From assembly GCA_000961765.1 (NCBI GenBank), contig LADT01000036.1:1-64000 (forward strand): a stretch of 64,000 nt of DNA, in the 5' to 3' direction. The translations under genes were made by a program, and so were the position numbers. A model generated the notes under the pieces. The model did no database searches and was not told the origin of the DNA. It worked only from the letters and a program-made list of their open reading frames with translations. The stretch comes from Clostridiaceae bacterium BRH_c20a. GTDB taxonomy: Bacteria; Bacillota; Peptococcia; Peptococcales; BICA1-8. Every line of letters starts with the position of its first letter. Position 1 is the stretch's first letter. Positions 56,132 to 64,000 of this stretch are shown in pieces.

Positions 56132-57954
56132 GGGGCTGTAACAAAACTAGCCCCAAAAGACGCTTAAACTAACAGGTTTAGGCGTCTTTTTATGTCAAAA
56201 ATCATCAAAATTTGGTATAATTAAGAGTGAGGAAACCATTGATAATAATAGGTTTTGGAGGGTTTTGGATGTCAAAAAAAGGACAAAGGGTGCATGATAA
56301 AAAACTATTTAGACCATACAATCAGGAGCAGTTGATGCTTCCCATGAGCATAGAAAGCCTAATACCAGAAAATCATGTAGTTCGTGTAGTAAATAGTGCA
56401 ATAGATAAAATGGACCTTGAAGCATTATTAGCTAAATACCCTGGAGGTGGAAGATCAAGTTACAATCCAGTTATGATGACAAAGCTTTTAATCTATGCCT
56501 ATACAGATAAAATTTTTTCCTGTCGCAGAATTGCTAAAGCAGCTCGTGAGAATATAATTTATATGTGGATTTGCGGAGGTAACCAACCAGACTTTATGGC
56601 TGTAAACCGCTTTCGTAGTGAACGAATGAAAGATGTAATCCTAGAAGTATTTGCAGAAGTAGTGGATTTGCTAGCAAAAGAGAAATACATAAAGTTAGAG
56701 AACTACTTTTTAGATGGAACTAAAATAGAAGCCAATGCAAATAAATATAGTTGGGTATGGGGAAAATCCACCAAGCGCTACAAAGAAGCATTAAAACAAA
56801 AGTGTAGAGACTTATTCAAAGAAATAGAAATAATCAATGAAGAGGAAAATAACGAATATGGAAATGCTGATTTAGAGGAACTGGGTAACGGTAACCCCAT
56901 TAATGCAGCAGCCATAGAAGAAGCTGTTAAAAGAATTGATGAAAGATTAGCCCAAAAGCCAGAAAATGCAAACCCAGACGATGAGACCAAAAAACTAAAC
57001 AAGGCAAAGAAAATCATTGAAAAAGATTACCTTCCTAGAATGAAGAAGTACGAAACTCAGGAAGAAATATTGGCCCAAAGAAACAGCTATTCAAAAACAG
57101 ATCACGATGCTACTTTTATGAGAATGAAAGAAGACCATATGAAAAATGGACAACTCAAGCCTGGTTACAACGTACAAATAGGAACAGAAGATCAATTTAT
57201 CGTAGGATATAGCATACATCAAAGACCTGGCGATACAAGCTGCCTGAAGGAGCATATGGAAACAGTAAAAAAAATACTTGATGGTAAGCTCCCTAAAAAT
57301 GTTATAGCCGACGCAGGCTATGGAAGTGAAGAAAATTATGAATTTTTAGAAGAAAGTCAGATAGGCCACTTCGTAAAGTATAATACTTTTCACAAAGAGG
57401 CAACTAATAAATGGAAAGAGGACATTACAAAGGTACAAAACTTTAATTACTCTGAAGTTACTGATGAATATATCTGTGGATATGGTAGACCCCTAGTTTT
57501 TATGTATGAGTATAAACGAAAAAGTGATAATGGTTACATAAGCCTAATTCGAGTATATGAATGTCTTAATTGCTCTGGATGTCCGCATAGAGATAAATGT
57601 GTTAAGTCAGAAAAATCATATGCCAACAGGAGAATAAATATCAATCGAAAGTTAAATGACTTTAAAGAAAAAGCCAAGCAAATTCTGTGCTCAGAGGAAG
57701 GTCTAAAAATGAGAAGTCTGCGACCAGTTGAAGTCGAAAGTGTCTTTGGTGATATCAAAGGCAATTTTGGCATCCGCAGATTTGTTTTGAAGGGATTAGA
57801 TAAAGTTAAAATTGAATGGGGCTTACACAGTATAGCCCATAATATGAGGAAAATGGCGGTGCTGATGGCGTAAACATGGCAGGCTTTTTTTATTTATTTT
57901 TACTAGCATAAAAACAAAGCAGGGGCGTAACGAAACTAAAGTTTCGTTACGCCC
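56132..57954 (+). mobile_element. IS1182-family insertion sequence
   Basis: The left end GGGGCTGTAACAAAACTA and the reversed right end GGGCGTAACGAAACTTTA form imperfect terminal inverted repeats. Each end also contains an internal palindrome. One intact transposase gene fills the element. A terminator-like stem (AAAAGACGC...GCGTCTTTT, about 56,156-56,192) near the left end shields it from outside transcription. Target duplication could not be made out. Confidence 0.8.
56269..57873 (+). CDS. IS1182-family transposase
   Basis: The preferred ATG at 56,269 follows TTGGAGGG, giving 534 residues; the frame opens 14 codons earlier. The N-terminal part (FRPYNQEQLMLPMSIESLIP) and the catalytic core match IS1182: YFLDGTKIEANANKYSWVWG holds the first Asp, VIADAGYGSEENYEFLE the second, and VEVESVFGDIKGNFGIRRF the Glu. 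A Cys cluster (CLNCSGCPHRDKC) lies between. The frame is intact, so the element could be active. Confidence 0.93.
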   Translation: MSKKGQRVHDKKLFRPYNQEQLMLPMSIESLIPENHVVRVVNSAIDKMDLEALLAKYPGGGRSSYNPVMMTKLLIYAYTDKIFSCRRIAKAARENIIYMWICGGNQPDFMAVNRFRSERMKDVILEVFAEVVDLLAKEKYIKLENYFLDGTKIEANANKYSWVWGKSTKRYKEALKQKCRDLFKEIEIINEEENNEYGNADLEELGNGNPINAAAIEEAVKRIDERLAQKPENANPDDETKKLNKAKKIIEKDYLPRMKKYETQEEILAQRNSYSKTDHDATFMRMKEDHMKNGQLKPGYNVQIGTEDQFIVGYSIHQRPGDTSCLKEHMETVKKILDGKLPKNVIADAGYGSEENYEFLEESQIGHFVKYNTFHKEATNKWKEDITKVQNFNYSEVTDEYICGYGRPLVFMYEYKRKSDNGYISLIRVYECLNCSGCPHRDKCVKSEKSYANRRININRKLNDFKEKAKQILCSEEGLKMRSLRPVEVESVFGDIKGNFGIRRFVLKGLDKVKIEWGLHSIAHNMRKMAVLMA

Positions 57955-57995
57955 TCTTTATTATTTCTAGTGAGGGCTATTTTCCTGGTAGGATT

Positions 57996-58937
57996 TTATA
58001 CAATATCTGGCTTGGAATCTAAGACGGTGGCAATCAGCTCTGTAGCTTTTAATGGAGATAAGCATTCCATTAATATATTATCCTTACTCTTTTCTAAGTA
58101 CAAAACATCAAGCGGTCCGGCTTGTAGTAGTATAAAGTTAGACCTATATAGATTGTTCTTATGTACTTGCCCGACCACAACTTCAATAATATTTTCAAAA
58201 ATTAGAAAATTCCCGGCAAAAAGTAATGCTTCCCCAACAGGTCGATAAACATTATTCTCTTTTTTCACCAGTCCTTTCTCAATCAGAGCATTTAAAGCTT
58301 CTTCAATTATTTCCATGGTCAATTCGGGAATACCAGCATTAATTACAAATACGTGGAAGGCTAAATTTTGAGAATTTTCCCTTAGTTTATTAGAAGCCTT
58401 CAAAAGCTCATCCTTGGTAAAACCCGTATATACAAAAACCTCTTCTTGGGCATAAGCACTAAATACTGCTTTCCTATAAAGGTCTGTGATAACAGCCAAG
58501 CAAAAAGCCTCATTAGCAGGTAGTTCTAAATCTAAGTCAGACCCAGTCAAGGTGCTTTTTCCCATATACTCCCCGATGAATTTAGCCATTGCCTTGGGGT
58601 TTGAAGGCATTGTGATAGTTGCTTCCTCCCCTTGATACACAACTGAAACCTTTTTATCTCCCTGGCAAATAATTTGCTTTCTAGCTTTTATTGGTCCTCT
58701 CTTAAAGGTGGTATCAATAAAACCATCGGCTAAGGCTAATATTTCCAGTAGAGGATAATAGCTAGCCTTTATGGTATTATCCTCTTTTATGATTCCATGG
58801 TTAATTAACTTTTGCTTATCTTCATTAGTAAATTCAGATAGCTTAGCGTCACCCAAAGGGGAAATAAAACTTTTATTCTCAAAGGCCTGCCCCAGCCAGC
58901 TTAAATCTTTTAATTGTACCTTAACTTCCAAAGACAT
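57996..58937 (-). CDS. Unrecognised protein, last gene of the radical-SAM operon
   Basis: The ATG at 58,937 follows TAGGAGGGATAAT, giving 313 residues, 10 bases after the stop of the coiled-coil gene. The first half is beta-rich (KKVSVVYQGEEATITMPSNP); the second is helical with a winged-helix-like stretch (EEALNALIEKGLVKKENNVY). No signal peptide, membrane helix or catalytic motif is visible. Loosely, the size and mixed fold recall cytoplasmic chaperones of specialised secretion systems. This is only a resemblance. Its tight coupling suggests it acts with the KIRNDFVTNSSS protein. Confidence 0.7.
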   Translation of the reverse strand: MSLEVKVQLKDLSWLGQAFENKSFISPLGDAKLSEFTNEDKQKLINHGIIKEDNTIKASYYPLLEILALADGFIDTTFKRGPIKARKQIICQGDKKVSVVYQGEEATITMPSNPKAMAKFIGEYMGKSTLTGSDLDLELPANEAFCLAVITDLYRKAVFSAYAQEEVFVYTGFTKDELLKASNKLRENSQNLAFHVFVINAGIPELTMEIIEEALNALIEKGLVKKENNVYRPVGEALLFAGNFLIFENIIEVVVGQVHKNNLYRSNFILLQAGPLDVLYLEKSKDNILMECLSPLKATELIATVLDSKPDIV

Positions 58938-58947
58938 ATTATCCCTC

Positions 58948-60372
58948 CTACATTTCAATTTTCCAATCACCAAAAACAAAACCTTCACCCTTAGGTAAAT
59001 TCTTCATCTGGTTAATGGTGTTATTTTTAATGGAATCCTTAATATTGTCCTTAATAAAGTCTTTTATAGTTGGATTACCTGCTACTGCCCCCTTAAATAT
59101 TTGCTTTGGAGAATATTTGCCAAAATCTATATCCCGGCCTGTATTAGGCAAAAATTTATTTGTAGCTCTATCAACAACAGAATCAACAGCAGCCTTTTTC
59201 ATACCATCCTTCATGCCCTTGGTTATATCCTCACCCTTTTGATATGAGGTAATGGCACCTTGACCTACCTCTGAGGTTAAACCAATGGCATCCTTGACAT
59301 ACTGGTTTTCTGTAAATTCCTTGGCCACATCTCCTGCTCCTTTGATCGCACCTTTCGTGATATGGGAAGCTGCATTTTCAGGGTCGGCCCAAGCCTCACC
59401 TACCCCACCGGCAACCCCCTTGGCTCCAACATAGACTTTTTTGATGGTCTTTCCTACAGGACCAGTTACTTTTTCCAGAGCATCTACGCCGATATCGGCA
59501 GCTGTCTGTATAACCTCCGCAGACTTAAGATACTTATCTGCGGTATTGGCATACTTCATATGCTCACGGCTTTCCTCTTTCCACGCTTCAATATTTCTTT
59601 CGATTATAGCTTTTTTCTTTCTGTCTATCTTTTCTTTCCTTAAATCCTCTAAAATCTTGTCGTATTTTTCATCCACCTTTTTAATTAATTCAGCCACTGA
59701 TTTACTGGGTCCGATATCTTCCCTTTCCTTAGGCTTATAATTATACTCTACCCCTTCCTTTTTAAGGGTTTTATCTAGATCCTTTTCCCAGTTTTTATAC
59801 ATTTCCAGCTGACTTTTTGCCTCAGAAATCTCATAGCCGGCCGCCCCATAGCCCCTTATAGATGCTTCGATAAATTCAATCTGCTCCCGTACACTTTTTA
59901 AATCCTCTTTTCTCTGTTCAATCCAGTCCGCCTTGTATTCGGCTTCCGCTTCCTGGGCTAGCTTCTCTACCTGCTTCTCGAATTCAATACTTTCAGCTTC
60001 TTCTTTTTTATTCTTTAAATATTCAATATACTTATTATATTCCTTTTCCTTCTGTACATAGTCATCACCCTCATAGGTATCCTTCACCTCTTGCCACTCT
60101 TTTTCGTATTCTCCAATTTCCCGATCAAGCTTCTTCAATTTTTTTTCATAATCCTCATCAGACTTTACAAAACTTTCGGGATCAAAATCTCTATCCGGAC
60201 CACCATAATCAGTTCCATCATCGGTAGAAGGCATGCCAGCTGCAGCCTCCGATGCCGCCATAGCAGAGCTTATCCCTAACGCAGAGATTATTGCTGTCAC
60301 AAACCCTGTTACGGTAGCGGCTCCGAAGCTGGTGCTGCTGGAATTGGTAACAAAATCATTTCTAATCTTCAT
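58948..60372 (-). CDS. Coiled-coil protein with KIRNDFVTNSSS N-terminus
   Basis: The ATG at 60,372 shares one base with the TAA of the radical-SAM gene and lies behind GGAGGTG, giving 474 residues. It begins MKIRNDFVTNSSSTSFG, a motif seen at the N-termini of many otherwise unrelated clostridial and phage proteins. A hydrophobic stretch (about 17-45) is followed by a long charged coiled coil (about 65-290). A Gly/Ala-rich region (about 330-440: GPVGKTIKKVYVGAKGVAGG) follows, resembling exported polymorphic-toxin-type proteins. The true function is unknown. It may be the substrate of the upstream enzyme. Confidence 0.75.
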   Translation of the reverse strand: MKIRNDFVTNSSSTSFGAATVTGFVTAIISALGISSAMAASEAAAGMPSTDDGTDYGGPDRDFDPESFVKSDEDYEKKLKKLDREIGEYEKEWQEVKDTYEGDDYVQKEKEYNKYIEYLKNKKEEAESIEFEKQVEKLAQEAEAEYKADWIEQRKEDLKSVREQIEFIEASIRGYGAAGYEISEAKSQLEMYKNWEKDLDKTLKKEGVEYNYKPKEREDIGPSKSVAELIKKVDEKYDKILEDLRKEKIDRKKKAIIERNIEAWKEESREHMKYANTADKYLKSAEVIQTAADIGVDALEKVTGPVGKTIKKVYVGAKGVAGGVGEAWADPENAASHITKGAIKGAGDVAKEFTENQYVKDAIGLTSEVGQGAITSYQKGEDITKGMKDGMKKAAVDSVVDRATNKFLPNTGRDIDFGKYSPKQIFKGAVAGNPTIKDFIKDNIKDSIKNNTINQMKNLPKGEGFVFGDWKIEM

Positions 60373-61397
60373 TATTTCACCTCCTGCATTTTTGCACATA
60401 AGACGATTTCCTTCTTTATAGGACAACCCCCCAAGCAATCCGCTTTTTTATCACATTCTGGACAGCTCATTTTTTGGGTACTGCGAAAGCTTTCAAAGGA
60501 TTTGCTTTCCCAAGCCTCATTTATTGAGTATTTTTTTAGGCTTAGACCCCATTGATACTGCTGGTCAAAGCTGCACGGAGTCATTATCATATTAGGCGAA
60601 ATATAAGCACTGTATCTTGCACCTTCACAGGTATCAATTGACTTTAAATGGATATTTGGGCTAAAATTTATTATCCCGGGAATACAGCAGCTATCAAACC
60701 CAACCTTATTGATATATTCCTCCAAGTTAAAGAGGTTGAAAAATTCTTTAACCTTAGGGTCTAAAGAGCTTAGGACATTCTTGCTTTCCCCCATTCCTAC
60801 CGGTTTATGAAGCAAAAAAATTATCCGGTTGATACCTGTCGGAAATTTATTATTGCTTAATAAATCAAAGGCTTCGTCAATAGTGTTATTACCTAGCACA
60901 TAGTGGATATTAGTCTTTATACCTAAGGATAGTAATAACTCCAAAGCCCTTAAAGTATAGGAGGACCGATACCAACTGACAGCCACGGCTCCACAATACT
61001 TTTTCATTATCAAAGCGTGCCTTTTTGTTAAACCAAAGCCGGAGGTAGTGATGTTAGGAACAATTTCATTCTCCCTGCTATAGCTTAAAATTTCCTCGAA
61101 ACTTTCATGCATCTCGGGGTCACCCCGTCCACCTAAGGCAATTTGAAACAGTTTACCCTTACACTGATTTACTATAGCTTTGTAATCCTCAAGAACCATA
61201 TTTGGCTCATTCTTCGTAAGACCGCTTTGGTAGCATTGGATTCCCGCCTGTAAACAAAGACCAGAGGCACCGTGAACACAGTGACCCATAATACCGACAT
61301 CCAACAAATGAGGAAAGGAACCACGAAAGGGGTCAACACCAGTGTCCTGACCTTCCTTATTAATTATTCCCGTTCGATAATAGAAGCCCGAATCCAA
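60372..61397 (-). CDS. Radical-SAM/SPASM-like maturase with unusual cysteine spacing
   Basis: The 341-residue frame from the TTG at 61,397 holds GHCVHGASGLCLQAGIQCY, where three cysteines are spaced CX7CX6C instead of CX3CX2C. A TIM-barrel-type region follows: IALGGRGDPEMHESFEEIL, VPNITTSGFGLT and NIHYVLGNNT. The C-terminal SPASM-like Cys set is MTPCSFDQQ, then CPECDKKADCLGGCPIKK. Sequence in the same frame upstream (LADSQFRFAYSFDLDSGFYY) also looks coding. A CTG at 61,445 stands 10 bases behind GAGGTGAGG and may be the true start. It should bind Fe-S clusters and could modify a peptide or protein partner. Confidence 0.75.
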   Translation of the reverse strand: MDSGFYYRTGIINKEGQDTGVDPFRGSFPHLLDVGIMGHCVHGASGLCLQAGIQCYQSGLTKNEPNMVLEDYKAIVNQCKGKLFQIALGGRGDPEMHESFEEILSYSRENEIVPNITTSGFGLTKRHALIMKKYCGAVAVSWYRSSYTLRALELLLSLGIKTNIHYVLGNNTIDEAFDLLSNNKFPTGINRIIFLLHKPVGMGESKNVLSSLDPKVKEFFNLFNLEEYINKVGFDSCCIPGIINFSPNIHLKSIDTCEGARYSAYISPNMIMTPCSFDQQYQWGLSLKKYSINEAWESKSFESFRSTQKMSCPECDKKADCLGGCPIKKEIVLCAKMQEVK

Positions 61398-61428
61398 ATC
61401 AAAGCTATAGGCAAATCTAAATTGGCTA

Positions 61429-62301
61429 TCAGCTAAAGCTTTCAGTTTTATTTTGCCTCACCTCTTTTTTGCCAAATAAAATCAACAGTAAGCCTGCTAC
61501 AAATAATATAGATCCTAAAATATAGCCTCCGAGGTCCAATTTTATTACCCCAAAAACACTATTTAAAAGTAATCCCAAAGTAAATCCAGTAACCAAAATA
61601 AACACTTTATCATCAGTTAACAATTCTGCCTTCTTAATAAATCCGGTGCAATCCTTATAAACCAGCTTTAATGCGGTGAACAGCATGGTCTTATTTCCCT
61701 TGGAAAGGGTATTTATCAGCGCAATAGCGATGACATAGGTAACTAATACCTTATCCAAACGGTTGTTTCTTGTTAGAAAATTGGCCACTACAAAACCTAC
61801 ACCACTGGAAACTAATATTATGTAATTACCTAATATTCCCAAACTTTTTCTAGCTCCCATCAAATTACCGGGGAAGGTTTTATAGTCAGCTAAAACCTTA
61901 CTAAAACCTTCACTTCTGATACGTCTAAACAATGCTTTGCCTATGGTGAAAATTATTACCCAAAAAATTGTTCTGGGAATGATTGAGTTATATGATGAAG
62001 TAATAAAAACAAAAAAGAATAGTAAAGATCTAGTAATACCCTGCACCGAATAGGTAGGTATGGATTCCAAAGCTATATTAAAGACGGTGACTATCCCTAG
62101 GGGTAAAATAATTCCCTTTATAATAGTAGGTAAATTTTTTATCCCCTTGCCAATAAGGTAATAAAATAGCTCCCAAGAATGTTCAAATGAGATTCCATTT
62201 GAACCCCTATTCTTTTTACCTTTAGGTGGTTCTGTTTCTTTAAGCTCAGCAGTGAACGATGGAATTCTTGGCAATCCGATATCGGTGTTTAATGTGGACA
62301 A
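61429..62301 (-). CDS. Multi-pass membrane protein, first gene of the radical-SAM operon
   Basis: The TTG at 62,301 behind CGAGGAGGGATAAAA is preferred over the upstream frame start, giving 290 residues. A hydrophilic N-terminus of about 70 residues precedes about six to seven helices. The loop between helices carries basic residues (RRIRSEGFSKVLADYKTFPG), and the C-terminus is basic (FGKKEVRQNK). No transporter or protease motif is visible. As operon leader it may export or anchor the product of the pathway. Confidence 0.7.
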   Translation of the reverse strand: MSTLNTDIGLPRIPSFTAELKETEPPKGKKNRGSNGISFEHSWELFYYLIGKGIKNLPTIIKGIILPLGIVTVFNIALESIPTYSVQGITRSLLFFFVFITSSYNSIIPRTIFWVIIFTIGKALFRRIRSEGFSKVLADYKTFPGNLMGARKSLGILGNYIILVSSGVGFVVANFLTRNNRLDKVLVTYVIAIALINTLSKGNKTMLFTALKLVYKDCTGFIKKAELLTDDKVFILVTGFTLGLLLNSVFGVIKLDLGGYILGSILFVAGLLLILFGKKEVRQNKTESFS

Positions 62302-62906
62302 TTTTATCCCTCCTCGTAAATTTAATTGAGCTATACCCATGACGAAATACTTTTCTTCTAGCAAGGTTATGAATATTCACACAACTATATTCCTAGCCTG
62401 ACTACATTATTTAAAAAGATTTGACCTAATTTATTTAAGATATACAAGTGAAATCAAGAATTTATTCTTAAACGTTCTTGCATTCTTTGAGACAGTTTTC
62501 TTGTTTTTCCTATTCCAATTAATATCGCCTCATTCTCTCTTTTAAATATTTTATTACAAGCTTATTACTCTTCTTTTTCCTGCTTCCATAAGAATAATTT
62601 AAGTCCATTCTTAAGTAGCCTCCTTAAATCCCTTTGACAGGCAAATCAGATATTGCCCAATTTAGGTCTAAAACTTTGGTATTGTTATGGGCATTATATA
62701 GTATTTTAACTATTTTGAACCTACCCAAAAAGGGTGGTTTTCTTTATTTAAAATAAATTTTAATAACAACAATAAAAAAATCCGCTAAAATTTTATAGCG
62801 GACAAAAAATTAACAAAAAAATAAGGCTCCCTTTAACCAGGCAATATTTTAGAGGGCATTCAAAATATAAAACAATTCTAAAGAAGGGATATTAGCTGAA
62901 CTATAT
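62302..62906. other. Gene-free stretch
   Basis: AT-rich, with no frame of note. It holds the promoter region of the radical-SAM operon on the left, several A/T-run stretches, and the short repeat at 62,701. Confidence 0.4.
62701..62744. repeat. Short repeat with hairpin, copy 2
   Basis: GTATTTTAACTATTTT and the ACCCAAAAAGGGTGGTTTTC core match the sequence at 55,963-56,006. The two copies flank the IS and the radical-SAM operon, both on the same strand. Confidence 0.55.
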
Positions 62907-63410
62907 CTAATTTATAACTTGTAAAAATTTATTCACTGATATTGAATATTGTGTCTCACAGGTTAATTCTTTGTCGTGAATGAAGCCAGCCTTTTTAAAC
63001 ACTCTTTTGGAACGTCCATTTTCATGGCTAATTTTTGCAATTACCTTGTCTTTCCGCCACTTAAAAAACGCATGCTTTAGACCCTCTAATACAGCTTTAA
63101 AGCCAAAGCCCTTTCCCCATTCCTTTTTGTCACCTATCACTACAACCATTTCTGTATGATAGTTCTTAGGTATTAACCTCAGAAACCCTATAGGCCCCTT
63201 ACTAGGAGTAGTTACCATAAAGAAGGTACCATCTTGATTAAAAACATGGGTTAATATTGGCATATTTACTCTGTAAATGATTTTCCGTATATTGTCATTT
63301 ACATTTTGACTTTCATTCAAATGCTGATTTACGTCATAATCTTCTAGCCAGTCAATAATTTTCTCTGCATCGGATTTGAAAATTTCTCTTCTTAATTCAA
63401 TAATTCTCAT
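62907..63410 (-). CDS. GNAT-family acetyltransferase
   Basis: The 167 residues match the GNAT fold: PIGFLRLIPKNYHTEMVVVI (beta-4), then EWGKGFGFKAVLEGLKHAFF with the acetyl-CoA loop (GKGFGF, a Q/RxxGxG/A variant) and NGRSKRVFKKAGFIHDKELT. It acetylates an unknown amine. Ribosome site GGAGGTGGG precedes the ATG. It stands alone between two gaps. Confidence 0.9.
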   Translation of the reverse strand: MRIIELRREIFKSDAEKIIDWLEDYDVNQHLNESQNVNDNIRKIIYRVNMPILTHVFNQDGTFFMVTTPSKGPIGFLRLIPKNYHTEMVVVIGDKKEWGKGFGFKAVLEGLKHAFFKWRKDKVIAKISHENGRSKRVFKKAGFIHDKELTCETQYSISVNKFLQVIN

Positions 63411-63679
63411 AGTCCCACCTCCAAAGGGTTAAAAAGTGAACAAATGCCCTTTTTAATTTATTATAAAAAAATAGCCTAAAGGCTAATGTAATAATTTATT
63501 TGTGATTTTCTCAAATTATTTTAACAAAAATATATACATATTTCAAAATTCTAATAAAGCTAGAATACCTTTGTAAGTAGCTATTTATTTATATAAATCC
63601 ATTTTCCTCAGGATAAGAGCAAATTACTAGAGATTTGTACTATTTTATAGCTACGAAGGGGCTTCTTAATAATGTTAAT

Positions 63680-63727
63680 AAAAGGGATAGCAAGGCAGAA
63701 TCATCTGCTTCTCGCTATCCCTTTATT
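63680..63727. terminator. Stem-loop terminator, variant of the repeat hairpin
   Basis: AAAGGGATAGC pairs with GCTATCCCTTT around a GCAGAATCATCTGC inner stem. It is a relative of the GCGATAGC hairpins that follow the cotJC fragments. It ends the minus-strand ABC gene. Confidence 0.75.
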
Positions 63728-63764
63728 TGTTCTTTATATCCTGGACAAATTTATAAAATCTTAA

Positions 63765-64000
63765 CTACACTAACAACATCCGGTCACTAAGTAATCCACG
63801 GCCGCTATTTTTTTCAAATAAGCCTAAGAGGGTTGCAACTGTGGCTTTTTTCCTTTCCTCACCTTTTAAATCAGCAACTATCTTACCTTCATGCATCATT
63901 ATTGTCCTATTGCCAACACAAAGGGCCTGCTGCAAATCATGGGTAATCATGAGAGTTGTCAGCTTATTACTTTTGATAATCTCCTCAGTAACCTCCATTA
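63765..64000 (-). CDS. ABC transporter ATP-binding protein, 3' part
   Basis: The frame enters from beyond the right edge. The visible 77 or so residues hold the H-loop (LTTLMITHDLQQALCVGNRT) and a strand-turn (IMMHEGKIVADLKG), the C-terminal end of an ABC ATPase. The end (ATVATLLGLFEKNSG) is typical of uptake-type ATPases of the YtrE/ABC-tryptophan-like kind. The substrate cannot be told. Confidence 0.8.
   Translation of the reverse strand, partial: MEVTEEIIKSNKLTTLMITHDLQQALCVGNRTIMMHEGKIVADLKGEERKKATVATLLGLFEKNSGRGLLSDRMLLV

Follow-up and report, generated by a model that had tools for sequence, protein, structure and literature searches.

What does a radical-SAM enzyme act on when its gene stands between one for a membrane protein and one for a large protein to which family libraries assign no function? 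The question is raised by an operon at positions 57996 to 62301 of the window, by which we mean the whole stretch of DNA analyzed here, 64,000 nucleotides of contig LADT01000036.1 from Clostridiaceae bacterium BRH_c20a. Its four minus-strand genes encode a membrane protein, a radical-SAM/SPASM enzyme, a protein that begins with the motif MKIRNDFVTNSSSTSF, and a partner. The motif recurs as a tag at the N-termini of many otherwise unrelated proteins in genomes most of which also encode a relative of the enzyme, and we think it probable (roughly 0.65) that the enzyme acts on this tag. The co-occurrence and co-variation of enzyme and tag described below were computed; binding and modification are what we infer from them. 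The features on which the argument draws are as follows.

61429 to 62301, minus strand: gene for the membrane protein (the M gene), first in the operon; 290 residues, TTG start, several hydrophobic segments (from homologues and hydrophobicity).
60372 to 61451, minus strand: gene for the radical-SAM enzyme with a twitch/SPASM auxiliary domain (Pfam, homologue alignment, AlphaFold model).
61233 to 61280, minus strand: radical-SAM cluster loop C-x7-C-x6-C-Y-Q, a variant of CX3CX2C whose spacing depends on the enzyme clade (alignment).
60396 to 60629, minus strand: SPASM cysteines C274-x17-C292 ... C329-x2-C332-x5-C338-x3-C342-x8-C351, numbered in the frame of 358 residues beginning at 61448 (Pfam, alignment).
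58948 to 60372, minus strand: gene for the 474-residue motif protein, with the N-terminal tag, a hydrophobic segment with an AxA-like site, a coiled-coil or helical body and a glycine-rich C-terminal part (open reading frame; homologues in at least eight other genomes).
60325 to 60372, minus strand: the N-terminal tag MKIRNDFVTNSSSTSF, a putative recognition and modification site (motif comparison).
57996 to 58937, minus strand: gene for the partner, 313 residues from ATG 58937, with a predicted EspG-like fold (model, homologues).

The tight coupling of the four genes that an earlier note on this DNA described is real: base 60372 is common to the stop codon of the enzyme (TAA, 60374 to 60372) and the ATG of the motif gene (60372 to 60370), and the motif gene ends at 58948, 10 bases short of the ATG of the partner at 58937. 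The first product is, as that note also held, a hydrophobic protein of membrane type; M-gene homologues lie 5′ of the enzyme in L037-L044, L047, L068, L069, L071 and G043, and neither Pfam nor NCBIfam contains a matching family. No function was assigned to any of the operon's proteins by Pfam, NCBIfam, PADLOC or PHROGs, the libraries searched, and an Rfam scan of 57000 to 64000 gave no match.

That the short N-terminal motif is common to unrelated proteins, another claim of the earlier note, proved correct on a large scale. The 332 tagged proteins collected from all loci fall into 101 body clusters (66 singletons); they are mostly 100 to 717 residues long, with diverse bodies, and the conserved part is confined to residues 1 to 16, with the consensus M-K-[IVL]-[RK]-x-[GDE]-[FY]-[VI]-[ST]-N-S-S-S-x-x-[FY] and the core form MKIR-x-[G/D]FV[S/T]NSSS. 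Every tag serine is encoded by both AGY and TCN codons, whose interconversion takes two changes, and the peptide is kept while the underlying DNA diverges. Positions 14 to 16, which the search pattern left free, are nevertheless occupied by serine in 146 of 175 tags, serine in 160 of 175, and phenylalanine or tyrosine in 174 of 175. The mixed codons and the conservation of unconstrained positions indicate selection at the level of the protein. In several tagged body families (e.g., L100, L097 and L111) the last residues are conserved too (...ISHH/ISKH, ...GAGRNG, ...AWxDN), and these short C-termini may pack close to the tag.

The phylum was represented by 398 genomes, in which enzyme and motif were sought independently, the former with a profile and the latter with a DNA pattern that allowed ATG, GTG and TTG starts. 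Both were found in the identical ten genomes (10 of 10 against 0 of 388; Fisher p = 4e-20), with the motif once per genome; an ATG-only pattern recovered seven of the same ten, and a reversed pattern, run as a control on the 398 genomes, had no match. The genome of the window has a single enzyme of the family and a single motif gene. The four-gene neighborhood, which the earlier note had proposed to look for elsewhere, is conserved: profile and phmmer searches located the same arrangement of membrane protein, enzyme, motif protein and EspG-fold partner in at least eight other genomes (G043/L040, G227/L039, L037, L038, the Dehalococcoidales metagenome-assembled genome L041, G216/L068, G324/L069, and G321/L071-L072, the last split over two contigs). 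In L042-L044 and in Fusibacter tunisiensis (L047) the operon occurs in a version in which no partner was detected. At loci of other radical-SAM families, which were weak matches (L006-L019, L051-L065), no motif lies nearby, and a relaxed motif scan of both sets gave the same result.

Among bacterial tagged proteins at least three kinds can be told apart. One is the 474-residue type, in an operon with the membrane protein. Proteins of about 138 to 147 residues make up another; they are encoded with the enzyme inside metal- or cobalamin/siderophore-type ATP-binding cassette (ABC) importer clusters of Syntrophomonas and G150 (L022:8294-9762, L048, L070:7780-9308), and they have a cysteine-containing C-terminus, CERGGCKV or CNCEVDPRTVKC. 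The third kind, of about 132 to 138 residues, lies behind Avs2-like trypsin-STAND proteins in G375 and G192. In two bacterial families (L073:4236-9049 and L074:4183-8844) a tight operon comprises a trypsin-like plus STAND protein of 927 to 979 residues, a protein of about 135 residues, the tagged protein and the radical-SAM enzyme; the large protein resembles Avs2 (PADLOC E 5e-24 and 1e-17), and the operon is a candidate defense system.

The pairing of enzyme and tag is apparently widespread, found mostly in phages, and undescribed. A motif-pattern scan of IMG/VR returned at least 120 stretches, with up to six tagged genes on a viral piece of 4 to 12 kb, and an enzyme-profile search brought up 120 viral relatives. 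The enzyme is encoded by 35 of the 41 motif-bearing viral contigs of at least 100 kb, with a best E value below 1e-67 in all 35. Strict motif genes are present on 29 of 36 enzyme-bearing viral contigs, a count that variant motifs such as MKRRHSFVTNSSSASF (on L214, L269, L271 and L272) raise to 33; the regular expression of the relaxed scan that supplied the variants passes over L042-L044, L047 and one RB43 gene, so its counts are too low, and the scan served only for these additions and as a control. A separate set of 49 control phage records, of which 37 were T4-like and the others large or random phages, contained neither enzyme nor motif. The motif gene nearest the enzyme lies at a median distance of 213 bp, frequently overlapping it, and a phage contig may encode up to about 11 tagged proteins. 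In INPHARED the enzyme is encoded in 173 records of cultured phages, annotated, if at all, as a hypothetical or radical SAM protein; in phage RB43 it is ORF169c (92836-93858), and the tagged proteins are ORF116c and ORF121c. Three features go beyond the earlier note: a mainly viral system, many putative substrates, and the EspG fold of the partner. As separate observations, one 163-kb viral contig has six tagged genes in tandem directly 3′ of the enzyme (L212:8999-11361), and two viral enzyme frames contain in-frame stops, one TAG in G449 (a contig of 547,943 bases) and two TAA in G441, possibly a result of recoding or of an intron.

The enzymes fall into clades A to D, and the tag varies with them. 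Clade A, which includes the window enzyme, has the long C-x7-C-x6-CYQ loop and a full SPASM set (CX2CX5CX3C...C); clade B has IGIMGxCX3CX2CYQ and four auxiliary cysteines; clade C has C-x3 to x17-CX2CYK and four conserved auxiliary cysteines; and clade D, which is bacterial, has a canonical loop and the full CX2CX5CX3C...C. The loop of viral clade-C enzymes (e.g., L116 and L104) is unusually variable, its first two cluster cysteines standing from 3 to 17 or more residues apart. All 60 tags encoded next to clade-C enzymes have serine at residue 9; next to enzymes of clades A, B and D, that residue is always threonine. The same rule holds within homologous bodies: seven body families carry both tag types, serine with clade C (27 cases) and threonine with A or B (54), giving 81 matching cases; in the one remaining case, L168, the enzyme is truncated and could not be classified. 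Such a match within homologous bodies fits recognition of the tag by the enzyme. The earlier note had suggested that the substrate might be the 474-residue protein or the motif at its N-terminus; this putative assignment gains support, and because the motif changes with the clade of the enzyme, it is favored over the body as the recognized part.

The enzyme itself is, on the evidence of its cysteines and its predicted structure, a radical-SAM twitch/SPASM protein. The SPASM half of the earlier note's description stands on the Pfam score (25.3 bits, cut-off 21.5). The Pfam Radical_SAM model falls below threshold (19.6 against 29.5), an unusual cluster loop being the probable reason, yet the three-cysteine loop is present and the AlphaFold model (pLDDT, the predicted local distance difference test score, 95) has the fold, its best solved matches being SuiB, anSME, PqqE, CteB and SkfB, all modifiers of peptides or proteins. 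By sequence, the enzyme also matches BtrN. All six use auxiliary clusters in oxidizing or cross-linking their substrates, which are peptides or alcohols. Across the family alignment C57 and C72-Y are invariant and the middle loop cysteine differs by clade; the auxiliary cysteines form either a seven-cysteine SPASM or a four-cysteine twitch set. Four of them (GxDSC, DxCE, PCSF and CP) are present in every clade, which speaks for at least one auxiliary cluster. The start at TTG 61397 probably leaves the protein truncated: an open frame extends back to about 61454 (361 residues), homologues align across 17 to 19 extra residues ahead of that TTG, and a Shine-Dalgarno-like AGGTGAGG precedes ATA 61451 and CTG 61445. 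To judge from these sequence features, the real start probably lies near 61445-61451, so that the enzyme gene would overlap the membrane gene at its 3′ end; the relative G043 has the same kind of overlap. The earlier note had allowed that the enzyme might map to a known, unrelated family with a defined substrate; no named NCBIfam or Pfam enzyme family scored above cut-off, and the best NCBIfam matches were far below it. The closest phage family is phrog_7293 (E = 4e-107 for a clade-C phage enzyme), listed as of "unknown function," in keeping with that note's impression of an undescribed system.

Several observations weigh against action on the tag. Six of the 41 motif-bearing contigs lack the enzyme, about three of the 36 enzyme-bearing contigs lack a recognized motif, and many shorter enzyme-bearing fragments have no motif in the flank examined; viral contigs are often fragments, and most of the unpaired ones probably are. 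The co-variation could in part reflect co-inheritance within viral lineages. The position that we take to be that of the catalytic aspartate of anSME is not obviously conserved in the family. Finally, the target residue within the tag is only putative, and the tag may serve for docking alone, in the manner of the leaders of RiPPs (ribosomally synthesized and post-translationally modified peptides), with the modified residue elsewhere, for example near the C-terminus. SPASM enzymes that act on RiPPs generally use a recognition segment separate from the modified core, and conservation extends to the C-terminal end in several phage body families (e.g., ...RISHH and ...GAGRNG). Against such a role, the 101 unrelated body clusters share nothing beyond the tag that would make an obvious target, the reactive-looking N-S-S-S residues are among the most conserved positions, and an enzyme of 341 to 358 residues offers no room that we could see for an extra domain like the RiPP recognition element (RRE); we consider a docking role alone unlikely.

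Other accounts fare worse. Phage accessory genes cluster, and the frequent adjacency of enzyme and tagged genes could mean that they travel in one cassette for other reasons, the enzyme acting on a small molecule or another protein. The co-occurrence persists at a distance, however (in RB43 the tagged genes lie at 68-73 kb and the enzyme at 93 kb), the structural neighbors of the enzyme modify peptides or proteins, and the matching of residue 9 to the clade within homologous bodies is hard to explain by hitch-hiking, so that we regard a cassette of this sort as improbable. The AxA-like site and hydrophobic stretch after the tag, together with a partner of secretion-chaperone fold, might instead suggest that the operon is a RiPP or secretion cluster of the classical kind, its 474-residue protein being a precursor that is cut down to a small product. 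But the operon has no peptidase or ABC exporter, the substrates are large (474 to 717 residues), the tagged proteins of phages show no leader/core layout, and in the operon-bearing genomes tested no EssC-type type VII system and no WXG100 protein scored above cut-off; we give such a cluster very little weight. Least credible of all is a regulatory or recombinational role of the shared 5′ sequence at the level of the nucleic acid: it does sit at the start of many unrelated genes, and we rejected a role of this kind on the AGY/TCN mixing at the serines and the divergence of the DNA beneath a constant peptide.

If the enzyme does act on the tag, a leaderless sequence at the extreme N-terminus would be recognized by a radical-SAM protein-modifying enzyme. 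The enzyme would bind the first 16 or so residues, with the serine or threonine at position 9 matched to its clade; the 5′-deoxyadenosyl radical would abstract a hydrogen from a residue of the invariant N-S-S-S core, and the conserved auxiliary Fe-S cluster, to judge from its cysteines and from the structural neighbors, would accept the second electron, leaving an oxidized tag. Since the tag serines are invariant, the single most likely outcome is oxidation of a serine to an aldehyde of the formylglycine type, a suggestion made by analogy and itself doubtful; a serine-centered cross-link comes next, close behind. In phages one enzyme would serve several unrelated tagged proteins. In the bacterium of the window, one enzyme would have one dedicated substrate, the 474-residue protein, accompanied by a membrane protein and a chaperone-like partner.

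For that partner no significant family match was found in Pfam or NCBIfam. Its model (pLDDT 85) points to an EspG-like three-dimensional fold, the 18 best PDB matches all being EspG proteins (EspG3, EspG5 and EspG1; E about 1e-10 to 1e-7, template modeling score about 0.5). EspG chaperones belong to mycobacterial ESX type VII secretion, which we therefore considered, without finding support for it: in the operon-bearing genomes tested, the EssC-type ATPase model (TIGR03928) gave only sub-threshold, FtsK-like matches and WXG100 (PF06013) none above cut-off. The hydrophobic stretch GAATVTGFVTAIISALGISSAMA directly after the tag makes it probable that the 474-residue protein is directed to the membrane. 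We suspect, from the model, that partner and membrane protein serve a chaperoned, membrane-associated, tag-modified protein, which the EspG-fold partner would hold and which would work with the membrane protein.

The enzymes of the bacterial operons (that of the window and nine others) form one group (100/99) nested, via starred branches, among phage clade-A enzymes in a tree whose bootstrap is not fully settled; as far as sequence can tell, this suggests capture from a phage. A more general scheme seems possible to us, at somewhat less than even odds: a viral tagging system in which one radical-SAM enzyme oxidizes a tag serine of many unrelated phage proteins, so that all of them acquire the same reactive or recognition group and with it a common fate (e.g., covalent assembly, localization or protection). 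Bacteria would have captured this system at least once for an envelope or secretion operon, as in the window, and it also occurs beside Avs-like defense genes.

Two further features of the genome may be recorded. A perfect inverted repeat at 57923-57954 (GGGCGTAACGAAAC-TTTA-GTTTCGTTACGCCC), between the end of the operon and a convergent transposase-like gene (56227-57873), is a candidate terminator or element end. A second, distant radical-SAM gene on contig 7 of the window's genome, G000 (L023:8206-9120), is 29% identical over part of the protein only and has no tagged neighbor.

Among the known systems nearest to this one are the anaerobic sulfatase-maturing enzymes (anSMEcpe, AtsB), which share the radical-SAM/SPASM fold, anSMEcpe being among the best structural matches. 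They act in trans on a serine or cysteine of a leaderless short motif in large proteins, and their product is formylglycine. Their motif, C/S-x-P/A-x-R, is internal and belongs to one protein family, whereas the present tag is N-terminal, serine-rich and shared by about 100 unrelated, mostly phage, body clusters; the tag (F-V-[ST]-N-S-S-S) lacks the sulfatase motif, and the motif proteins scanned had no sulfatase family match. RiPP maturases (SuiB, CteB, SkfB, ChlB, TigE; PqqE) resemble the enzyme in fold and auxiliary Fe-S clusters, but here we saw no small precursor with leader and core and no RRE-like domain, and neither the window operon nor its conserved counterparts include a dedicated protease or exporter. 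Clades B and C resemble BtrN and other dehydrogenases of the twitch-domain type: they retain just four auxiliary cysteines, the number to be expected with one auxiliary cluster. The difference is that BtrN oxidizes a small-molecule alcohol. The EspG chaperones share the fold of the partner, but the type VII secretion to which they belong did not score above cut-off in these genomes. Like the earlier note, then, we recognize no known RiPP or secretion class, and we do not class the system as a case of RiPP biosynthesis, sulfatase maturation or type VII secretion because the defining features of each were looked for and not found. The phrog_7293 "putative radical SAM protein" of RB43-, GAP161- and Lw1-type phages belongs to the same enzyme family. 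Open-licence PubMed Central papers yielded no link between such an enzyme and an N-terminal motif, and nothing relevant on the motif strings, the RB43 locus tags, phage radical SAM proteins, or EspG with radical SAM; an earlier description elsewhere is possible. The fold of the enzyme is already known, and we regard the novelty of the system in the literature as provisional.

If action on the tag is borne out, large phages, among them RB43, a classic laboratory phage, would encode an unrecognized pathway of post-translational modification. The modified proteins would be ones now called hypothetical, and the tag would give both them and phrog_7293 a function. The tagged proteins would constitute a kind of radical-SAM substrate unlike those of RiPP or sulfatase enzymes, and the tag may offer a short, genetically encoded handle for site-specific protein chemistry.

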